Part shown: positions 30,006 through 33,335 of the stretch, in pieces
Numbering within the stretch: the stretch's first letter is position 1
Layout of the letters: each line of letters opens with the position of its first letter
NCBI GenBank assembly: GCA_903994795.1
Contig: CAJEYI010000007.1
Span: 1-42,446, forward strand
Length of the DNA: 42,446 nt
Source of the DNA: an uncultured bacterium
Lineage (GTDB): Bacteria; Patescibacteriota; Minisyncoccia; Phycocordibacterales; Phycocordibacteraceae
Direction of reading: 5' to 3'
Notes under the pieces: model-generated
What the model was told of the DNA's origin: nothing
What the model saw: only the letters and a program-made list of their open reading frames with translations
The model's database searches: none
Program-made: the position numbers and the translations under genes

Positions 30006-31274
30006 CTAATACACAGTACCAAGGCACGGCAAAATCATTGTCTTCTTCTGTATTGGACTACTCTTCACGCCTTTGCTTAACTTTTTTGTAGTCAGCGCTT
30101 GCAAACTCGAACCGAGAAACATCGTCTGCCTTCCGTATTTCTTGTTTACAGTATCTACTACCTGAAATGATCTACCTTTACTTGCCAATTCTTGAATCTC
30201 TCCAAATAAATCAAGCATGTGAGATTCATTAGAAATAAGACCTCTCAAAGTGACACCACTTGCCCGATATAGGACACCTTCTGCATAGACCTCATCAAAC
30301 CTCTTGTCAATAAAACCCATGACCTGAGTTGGGTCAGCAGTTGGAACAGTTAACTCAATCGACACAGCATGATACGTGAATTCTTGTGTTTTTAAGAAAA
30401 AAGAAATACCGCGTGCCTTTTGGTTATGATTTCGTGCTTTCTCACAGGCTCGTTCAACATTTTTCGATAATTGCGAGAATATATATGATCGACTCACTGA
30501 TGGCGGGGTGAATGTGCGAGTCGACATTATGGAATCGGTTGGGCCAAGTGACTCAAGTGTGAGCTTCTTTATGAAATGACCATTGAGCTCAAGCCATACA
30601 TCACGATATGCCTTGCCAAAATGGTGCTCTGTGAGCCATATATCGGGCTTCTGAGCGAACAGATAGGCGGTATCAGCACCAAGCTTCGCAAGATGCTGTC
30701 CTGATGCACCACCGAGTCCCCAGACACTATGAATTGAGAGAGGTTCGAGAAAATCTTTGATTTTCTCGAGAGGTATAACTGTAAAACCCGCGGGCTTGTT
30801 TGCCTTCGATGCTATCTTTGCAAGTGTTTTATTTGGCGCAAGACCGACGCCAAACGTAATGCCGAGCGAATCCTCAAGTTCGTCTTTAATCTTCATCACT
30901 ATTTCCTCATACGGCATTCCCATCTTTTCATCGAGCCCGGTAATGTCTGCAAAACATTCATCAATACTATATTCCTCAATTTTTTCAGTATATGTACGCA
31001 CGATTGAATACATGCGATGTGCATATATTCCATACGACCTATAATCCGAAGTGACAATAACTGCCTCTGGACAACGGATACGAATCTCACTCATTCGCAT
31101 ACCTCGATGAATTCCTCTTTTCTTCGCTTCGTATGAAAGTGAGGTCGCAGCACCTCTTTCACCCCCAGTGATAACCGGTTTCCCTCTCAATTTATAATTC
31201 ATCATCTGCTCGACTGAAGCAAAGAATGCGTCTCCATCAAAATGCACTATTGCTCGTGGAAAGTTTGCATTCAT
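30006..31274 (-). CDS. dinB: Y-family translesion DNA polymerase (DinB/UmuC type)
   Basis: The 422-residue protein has the catalytic aspartates in HFDGDAFFASVEQ and the D-E pair in YSIDECFADITG. A steric/template region AATSLSYEAKKRGI, the HhH-like thumb segment SIHSVWGLGGASGQHLAKLG, and a little-finger domain follow. It copies damaged templates with low fidelity. The C-terminal tail (about 395-422) resembles UmuC more than DinB and is basic. It lies 13 nt downstream of lexA, so it belongs to the SOS operon. Alternative naming as umuC is possible. Confidence 0.9.
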   Translation of the reverse strand: MNANFPRAIVHFDGDAFFASVEQMMNYKLRGKPVITGGERGAATSLSYEAKKRGIHRGMRMSEIRIRCPEAVIVTSDYRSYGIYAHRMYSIVRTYTEKIEEYSIDECFADITGLDEKMGMPYEEIVMKIKDELEDSLGITFGVGLAPNKTLAKIASKANKPAGFTVIPLEKIKDFLEPLSIHSVWGLGGASGQHLAKLGADTAYLFAQKPDIWLTEHHFGKAYRDVWLELNGHFIKKLTLESLGPTDSIMSTRTFTPPSVSRSYIFSQLSKNVERACEKARNHNQKARGISFFLKTQEFTYHAVSIELTVPTADPTQVMGFIDKRFDEVYAEGVLYRASGVTLRGLISNESHMLDLFGEIQELASKGRSFQVVDTVNKKYGRQTMFLGSSLQALTTKKLSKGVKSSPIQKKTMILPCLGTVY

Positions 31275-31287
31275 ATATAAATGGATC

Positions 31288-31863
31288 TCAGTATTTCCGA
31301 AACGTCGCAGTTACCACACCAATAATTTCTCCGTGCATTGGATGAATATCAGGATACTTTGCATTTGCTGCTTCCAAGTAGAACTGCGTACCGTGCTTCC
31401 GTAGGAATTTAAGTGTGTAGCCATCCTCTGTGAGAGCGACGACCATGTCTCCTGGCTTTGATTCCTTCGCACGCTCGAATATCACCATATCTCCTTCTTG
31501 AATTCCTGCATCAATCATTGAGTCTCCTTCGACTTTCAATAAATAGCTACGATTGGGGTGTGGTATTAGATATTCTCCGACAGACATCAAGTCAGCCATT
31601 TCATCCTCAGCAGGTGCCGCAAACCCAGCACGAATGTGTCCGACTAGGGGTAATTCGTGAATCTTGCTTGCTGGCGCGAGCTTACCAGTTCCGTCCTTCT
31701 CAATAATTCCTTCTTTCACCAATTGATTGATTGCGTAGAATGCCGAGCTGCGTGACGAAAAACCACACACTTTCATCACCTCGGTAACAGATGGCATGCG
31801 TTTATGTGAACGATAAAACTTCAGTATCTTTTCTTTATATTCTTGTAACCGTGATTCGGACAT
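31288..31863 (-). CDS. lexA: LexA-type SOS repressor
   Basis: The start is placed at ATG 31863 (191 residues). The N-terminal winged helix includes MPSVTEVMKVCGFSSRSSAFYAINQL. The C-terminal S24 protease domain has cleavage site A79-G80 in HIRAGFAAP, Ser115 in GDSMIDAG and Lys152 in GYTLKFLRK. RecA filaments trigger self-cleavage, which lifts repression. An LexA operator sits in its own promoter (31876-31893), and dinB follows in the same operon. The frame is open upstream of the ATG, but that stretch is the promoter itself. Confidence 0.92.
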   Translation of the reverse strand: MSESRLQEYKEKILKFYRSHKRMPSVTEVMKVCGFSSRSSAFYAINQLVKEGIIEKDGTGKLAPASKIHELPLVGHIRAGFAAPAEDEMADLMSVGEYLIPHPNRSYLLKVEGDSMIDAGIQEGDMVIFERAKESKPGDMVVALTEDGYTLKFLRKHGTQFYLEAANAKYPDIHPMHGEIIGVVTATFRKY

Positions 31864-31869
31864 CACTTT

Positions 31870-31899
31870 AGTATAATCGAACACTTGTTCGATAGTCAA
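31870..31899 (-). promoter_or_regulatory. lexA promoter with embedded SOS box
   Basis: On the minus strand the promoter is TTGACT (31894-31899), an 18-nt spacer, and TATACT (31870-31875), then 6 nt to the ATG. The spacer (31876-31893) is the palindrome ATCGAACAAGTGTTCGAT, which contains CGAAC-N4-GTTCG, the SOS box known from Bacillus-type LexA. Bound LexA would block polymerase directly. Confidence 0.9.
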
Positions 31900-33335
31900 T
31901 TGTGGATAACGGTTCCCGAACTCAACACCGTAAACGACTCTCGACGAGCGATATCTGGCACATGCTTCTTGATAAATTCCGACGTCACAACACCAGACAC
32001 TTCGTTCCAATTAGTAAGCTCGGTAAAGTCGAGCGGTACATACATGACCCTTACACCAATTGAATCTTTTATTCTGTCAATTTCATCCATGTACACAAGA
32101 TCTAACGGTGTTCGTGCAGAATAAATAAGCACAATATCTCGTCGCTCGTGTCTATCAGACAAATATCTGCAGATACTAATGACGGGTACGATTCCCATTC
32201 CTTCAGCGACTACACACAATTTAACCAATGGATCTTTAGGGAGAAACGGATCTCCGTATGGTCCGGTAATGGAAAGTACCTCTGCCTTTTTTAATGAGAC
32301 AAGCGCATCTTTAAAGGTGCTGCATTCGTTCGGGACGAGTGTACAAATACGCAAGAGAGGATCTGTTGGAGACGAACTTATATAAAAAGCTCGTCTATTT
32401 CCTCGAACATCAGTTGATTTATGAGGAATTGAAAATTCAAAGTATTGCCCAGGTTGGTATGTAATTTTCTGAACCGGCTTAAACGAATACTCAAAAATGT
32501 CTCGTGTAAGTTTTCGCGCATGTCTAAATATCACACTATGACGTTTCCTGCGTTCAAAAATAAACGCATATGTATTTCCAAGTAGTCCTGACGTGACTGA
32601 ATTTATTGCAATCCCCCCAACGGCAAATAGGTGCACATACAATAATTGATACACAAATCCAACCAATCCAGCATATATATTCTGGTGCTTACGAATACGT
32701 GGAGAGGACTGAGGATCAGTTAGTATAAATGCAGCGAAAAAGAGCACTGGACTGGTCACAATCAATCTGATCACTAGTCCGGATATCTCCAAGAGACTTG
32801 TGTGCGTAAAAATGACTGAAGTACCGACGAAAAATAGAATTGACGTACCTATAAAAACCCAGAACACTCTGTCCGAACCAGCTTTTCTGACAACAAGGTA
32901 TCCGAGAACTGCAACTGCGATTAACATCGCTGGAGCAGTGACCCACCAAGAAACTAGAGCTGTAGTTGCAAGTCCCGCACACAAGATACCCACCAGTGCA
33001 GGATTGAGGATATGAACTTTTTTGTATGAGATAACGTATTTAGATAGCATTGCAAGAGTTGCAACAATCATAAATAGCAATGCATCTCGTGCACTTTGCA
33101 CCGGAGTAAGCACGAAAAATAATATAAGTGCAGTAATATAGGGAGATTCGGAAATTGGTGTTGCTTTTGTAAAGAGCGCGAAAAGTGCATTTGCAACTTT
33201 TGCCGAGAACAACAAGATGAGCAATGACAGCAGCAATTCCATTGCAGTGTATGGAAGCCACCCAAGAAAAGCTTCAACAAGCGCAACTCCGCTTAGTGCA
33301 AATAAGCAATTCAATGTAAAACGCGCAACAGTCAT
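31896..33335 (-). CDS. NqrB/RnfD-like membrane domain fused to ferredoxin-NAD(P) reductase-like domain
   Basis: The 479-residue protein has about 9 membrane helices (1-260) with ILTDPQSSPRIRKHQNIYAG, similar to NqrB/RnfD. A flavoreductase domain (about 285-479) follows, with FAD-binding RAFYISSSP and the NAD-site GMGIVPVI. It may pass electrons between NAD(P)H and a membrane acceptor. The reductase domain ends at FTVLSSGTVIHN, where family members normally continue (a CGP-like turn and a last helix ending in an aromatic residue). About 20-30 residues are therefore missing. Its TGA stop lies inside the -35 hexamer of lexA. Confidence 0.75.
   Translation of the reverse strand: MTVARFTLNCLFALSGVALVEAFLGWLPYTAMELLLSLLILLFSAKVANALFALFTKATPISESPYITALILFFVLTPVQSARDALLFMIVATLAMLSKYVISYKKVHILNPALVGILCAGLATTALVSWWVTAPAMLIAVAVLGYLVVRKAGSDRVFWVFIGTSILFFVGTSVIFTHTSLLEISGLVIRLIVTSPVLFFAAFILTDPQSSPRIRKHQNIYAGLVGFVYQLLYVHLFAVGGIAINSVTSGLLGNTYAFIFERRKRHSVIFRHARKLTRDIFEYSFKPVQKITYQPGQYFEFSIPHKSTDVRGNRRAFYISSSPTDPLLRICTLVPNECSTFKDALVSLKKAEVLSITGPYGDPFLPKDPLVKLCVVAEGMGIVPVISICRYLSDRHERRDIVLIYSARTPLDLVYMDEIDRIKDSIGVRVMYVPLDFTELTNWNEVSGVVTSEFIKKHVPDIARRESFTVLSSGTVIHN

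Follow-up and report, generated by a model that had tools for sequence, protein, structure and literature searches.

The window, a stretch of 42,446 nucleotides, corresponds to contig 7 of a genome of 902 kb, and the genes around the promoter analyzed here all lie on its minus strand. lexA (31288-31863) encodes a 191-residue protein, P0001, in which domain and profile matches identify a winged helix-turn-helix (HTH) and an S24 peptidase domain. A gene for a Y-family DNA polymerase (DinB/UmuC-like; 30006-31274) follows 13 nt after lexA and is presumed to share its operon, and upstream lies a gene for a membrane protein with an NqrB/RnfD-like region and an FAD/NAD reductase domain (31896-33335). 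We treat P0001 as a LexA, although it falls below two family cut-offs: it scores 106.1 bits against NCBIfam TIGR00498 (lexA; curated cut-off 110.95), its best-scoring family, and 15.5 bits against Pfam LexA_DNA_bind (cut-off 23.7). Its C-terminal S24 peptidase domain matches PF00717 at 2.4e-24 (85.7 bits), and the LexA cleavage site and dyad (A79, G80, S115 and K152) are invariant across sets of 29 and 36 sequences. A profile search against solved structures returned full-length E. coli and Thermotoga LexA, covering both domains, in the 1e-29 range. The AlphaFold model of P0001 (mean pLDDT 77.9) and the LexA-DNA complex 3jso aligned along 166 residues with a Z of 14.1 and an rmsd of 5.8, the latter reflecting loose placement of the two domains. 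In named genomes the nearest lexA relatives come from Paceibacterota/Parcubacteria, among them Candidatus Kaiserbacteria, and reach at most 82% identity. The genome also has a recA gene. Y-family polymerases occur in 26 of 99 relatives, each of which also has a LexA match or, in G061, a UmuD/LexA-like match, so repressor and polymerase travel together.

Read along the minus strand, the lexA promoter consists of CAA, TTGACT, ATCGAACAAGTGTTCGAT, TATACT, AAAGTG and ATG TCC GAA. The -35 (TTGACT, 31894-31899) and -10 (TATACT, 31870-31875) elements have the hexamers and spacing (18 nt, within 16-18 nt) of a bipartite sigma-70 promoter. The whole spacer (31876-31893) is a candidate LexA operator, ATCGAACA-AG-TGTTCGAT from 31893 to 31876, with 8-bp arms around the central AG and an exact CGAAC-N4-GTTCG at 31878-31891. 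The earlier note had described this spacer as entirely a LexA-type palindrome and had placed the -10 six nucleotides from the lexA ATG (31863-31861), and we confirmed both: the palindrome takes up all 18 nt, and TATACT is followed by AAAGTG (31864-31869) and then ATG, so that transcription is predicted to begin on the A of the start codon or beside it. In place of the TG of an extended -10, which it lacks, the promoter has a good -35, as would be expected if the operator takes up the spacer. The TGA stop codon of the upstream gene does fall within the -35 (31898-31896), as had also been pointed out, but of the 39 lexA promoters with TTGAC, just two have a -35 stop that belongs to a real upstream gene. 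We therefore rejected the stop codon as a functional feature of the -35; the overlap is coincidental, a reflection of gene packing.

Within the window, CGAACN4GTTCG occurs exactly once, at the lexA promoter, and the number of looser matches to the box, with up to two mismatches, is about what chance predicts (17 found, 15.3 expected). There are five exact copies in the genome, and the four besides the lexA promoter lie well within genes; the proposed search for this box before uvr, recA and other genes, run across the genome, found none. A scan for degenerate boxes, which took in 834,592 bases (93% of the genome), matched ATCGAACN4GTTCGAT at all 14 positions at the lexA promoter only, and permuted half-sites yielded no matches in 200 trials. 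Elsewhere in the scanned genome, every GAACN4GTTC core either fell within a gene or an apparent tRNA or stood at the end of a gene with flanks that do not fit the box, and core-only sites were not enriched genome-wide (12 versus 18 for the control). Because of its flanks, the core at the gene end, which precedes a PBP gene, was rejected as a LexA target; three-mismatch sites before M16 peptidase and glycosyltransferase genes were judged to be chance matches. No box was found in the bases upstream of recA, and across the 834,592 bases scanned the lexA promoter is alone in having the full box, a result unlike a Gram-positive-type regulon that includes recA and repair genes. Given where the other cores lie and the boxless recA, the lexA-polymerase operon is probably the whole LexA/SOS regulon of this genome, 93% of which was scanned for degenerate boxes.

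The same promoter arrangement recurs upstream of lexA in relatives. GAACN4GTTC-N(1-6)-TATAMT is present in 28 of the 99 relatives, usually once per genome and mostly at lexA or the lexA operon, whereas a reversed control pattern gave four matches in all. We also compared 81 distinct lexA loci of Patescibacteria and some further phyla. Under permissive scoring, a GAAC/GTTC-type box lies no more than 600 bases upstream in 80 of them; TTGAC stands at the -35 of 39 of these 80 box-bearing promoters, and the -10 is TATACT or TATAAT in 62. The design as a whole (TTGAC, a GAACN4GTTC palindrome as spacer, TATAMT) is found at lexA throughout the order and also outside it, at a frequency of about one per genome. 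It is shared by some records from Omnitrophota, Riflebacteria and deltaproteobacteria, so it is not private to Patescibacteria.

Two other features turned up beside lexA in these comparisons. At L050 and L053 (G053 and G055) the box is palindromic through the -10 (AGTATATAGAACAATTGTTCTATATACT), so that the opposite strand has a mirror-image -10 and may carry a divergent promoter. A conserved protein of 59-73 residues is encoded, in other families of the order, between the box and lexA or just 3' of lexA (for example L161:1087-1287, L178:1292-1498 and L206:1288-1479), with the consensus MSKxxxxK...ELxxLNxxIDxKIIxGxSYxREARRHKFLL. All nine of its matches in the 99 relatives adjoin lexA, and it is presumably SOS-controlled. 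It is predicted to form two long helices (mean pLDDT 85.5), and Pfam and NCBIfam searches gave no convincing match.

The core GAACN4GTTC is of the Firmicutes/Actinobacteria type, and in this respect the earlier note was right to call the box Gram-positive-type. As a class label, however, the term is too coarse, since the outer bases of the half-site differ between close relatives: the core is nearly constant, but even a single genus can have TC, TA or GT as the two bases preceding it, giving half-sites TCGAAC, TAGAAC and GTGAAC. GTGAAC is paired with a recognition helix starting SKN or SRN in 46 of 46 cases, TCGAAC mainly with an SRSS helix (12 of 14, one exception being a parsing artefact), and TAGAAC with assorted S-K/R-S/G/A helices. 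This pairing is clade-structured, and so it suggests, rather than proves, that the recognition helix determines half-site specificity.

In most lexA promoters that directly abut the gene, among relatives that are not phylogenetically independent, the -10 ends exactly 6 nt ahead of the start codon; the nearest relative (L138) has GTG at this position. In our genome TATACT occupies positions -12 to -7 relative to the ATG, the placement used to recognize leaderless genes. At this distance transcription is expected to start on the start codon, so the lexA mRNA is probably leaderless, a reading of the spacing that is absent from the earlier note. Other families of the order have 25-60 nt between the -10 and the first gene, and leaderless starts are therefore not universal in the order. 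A genome-wide scan of 1628 candidate ATGs of 867 open reading frames (ORFs) found TATAMT starting at -12, -13, -14 and -15 before the ATG 53, 22, 15 and 10 times, respectively, versus 1.6 times per offset elsewhere; 100 of the 867 ORFs have the hexamer 6-9 nt before the ATG. Across these TATAMT promoters, T at -15 (50%) and G at -14 (65%) make an extended -10, and no -35 signal is visible. Shine-Dalgarno motifs are only slightly enriched genome-wide, a weak signal. The lexA TATACT agrees with the TATAMT signal at -12, and this leaderless-type promoter signal, as far as sequence can indicate, fits a leaderless lexA.

The 16S rRNA gene (L137; G000:C9:2911-4368, minus strand) ends GTCGTAACAAGG...CTCGTGGAACATATCC in place of ...TGGATCACCTCC. 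With a tail of ...GUGGAACAUAUCC, the CCUCC (CCTCC) of the anti-Shine-Dalgarno sequence is absent, as it is from all 22 readable ends in the genus and order (L219-L244), which likewise fits a leaderless lexA. In a sample of the phylum, CCTCC is kept in 1 of 4 genomes of the class outside this order and, counted from the listed tails, in 98 of 107 genomes outside the class. Of 18 genomes tested, some with CCTCC and some lacking it, nearly all have more TATAMT-N6-ATG than the control; leaderless-type promoters are thus widespread in the phylum and do not simply follow from the loss. We accordingly rejected the idea that leaderless starts are a simple consequence of anti-Shine-Dalgarno loss, as the excess is also present in Patescibacteria that keep CCTCC. 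A broader proposal, to which we give somewhat less than an even chance, is that this order of Paceibacterota has, as a whole, lost the anti-Shine-Dalgarno sequence and initiates translation mostly on leaderless transcripts from extended -10 promoters. The lexA promoter would then be an exception that has a -35 in place of the extended -10, which frees the spacer to act as the operator of the repressor and results in a one-operon SOS response. The change in 16S is observed directly; we infer the order's dependence on leaderless starts and its novelty. A literature search on leaderless starts and the anti-Shine-Dalgarno sequence in CPR bacteria found nothing direct, which is weak evidence of novelty.

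Two peculiarities of the genome assemblies were noted along the way. A second 16S tail in G013 (G013:C6:260-306) has the canonical GGATCACCTCC, which that genome's own 16S lacks, and C6 is probably a contaminant contig. Contigs C5, C26, C39 and C40 of G000 have a G+C content of 54-67% in a genome of 45%, and C5 has phage-like or foreign-looking genes; these contigs may represent a mobile element or binning contamination.

We consider it likely that lexA is driven by an autorepressed promoter of 40 bases, part of a minimal SOS switch in which a LexA operator fills the spacer, lexA and the polymerase gene form an operon and the mRNA is leaderless. A LexA gene and a Y-family polymerase gene follow a single promoter, and sequence comparison finds the spacer palindrome conserved at lexA throughout the order. 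LexA dimers would sit on the palindrome between the -35 and the -10 and block RNA polymerase. Upon DNA damage, activated RecA would trigger self-cleavage of LexA at Ala79-Gly80, and the promoter would open to give a transcript starting at, or within 1-2 bases of, the lexA ATG. Translated without Shine-Dalgarno pairing, this leaderless mRNA would supply fresh LexA along with the mutagenic polymerase.

Other readings of the locus differ in how much of this scheme they keep. One retains the LexA operator and gives lexA a short mRNA leader or another start, at the GTG at 31866 or at a downstream codon, so that lexA would not be truly leaderless. That GTG lies only 3 nt before the ATG, and the 25-60 nt leaders of some order members lend the idea some credit; but the exact 6-nt spacing recurs in divergent lexA genes, the nearest relative with its GTG included, the TATAMT peak at -12 across the genome shows this geometry too, and the next in-frame ATG is Met23, within the winged HTH. 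We regard such a start as rather unlikely. Assigning the palindrome to a regulator other than LexA is much less plausible still, as the palindrome occurs about once per genome, at lexA, and its outer bases track the LexA helix (GTGAAC always with SKN/SRN, TCGAAC mostly with SRSS). That a packed promoter should contain the palindrome by chance agrees with the chance-level count of degenerate matches in the window, but this explanation has a negligible probability, given that the full match is the only one in 835 kb, that permuted half-sites give none and that the position of the palindrome is conserved across genera.

The minimal, leaderless SOS switch that we favor would define precisely, and in testable form, where the repressor binds and where transcription starts in the damage control of mostly unculturable bacteria, and it raises the possibility of an SOS response reduced to a repressor and a mutagenic polymerase. 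The LexA helices and their half-sites form a natural series of pairs, a ready test of how specificity changes. More generally, if a whole order combines leaderless-type promoters with the loss of CCUCC from 16S, this would be relevant to the question of how translation is initiated in the absence of Shine-Dalgarno pairing.

Several known systems resemble this one in part. In Bacillus subtilis and Actinobacteria, the SOS box at lexA is of the CGAAC-N4-GTTCG type and overlaps the promoter, through which LexA represses its own gene. The lexA promoter described here shares the GAACN4GTTC core and the overlap, but its box is the entire spacer between -35 and -10, relatives differ in the outer bases, and the scanned genome has the box at no other promoter, that of recA included. 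The LexA network of Patescibacteria, the same system in the same superphylum, was reportedly described in 2017 by Sanchez-Osuna, Barbe and Erill (Environ Microbiol 19:3465, cited in PMC8565304), whose work probably covers the motif. For Mycobacterium tuberculosis lexA, experiment showed that translation and transcription start at the same position (PMC2897130), whereas the leaderless start proposed here is deduced from spacing, in a lineage without the 16S anti-Shine-Dalgarno core. HdiR of Streptococcus uberis, a LexA-like self-cleaving repressor, governs only a mutagenic cassette (PMC8565304) and is similarly limited in reach, although HdiR is not LexA and the repressor here has the LexA winged HTH. 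With these precedents in M. tuberculosis, Patescibacteria and S. uberis, the lexA switch belongs to a known kind, and its translation context is the more surprising part.
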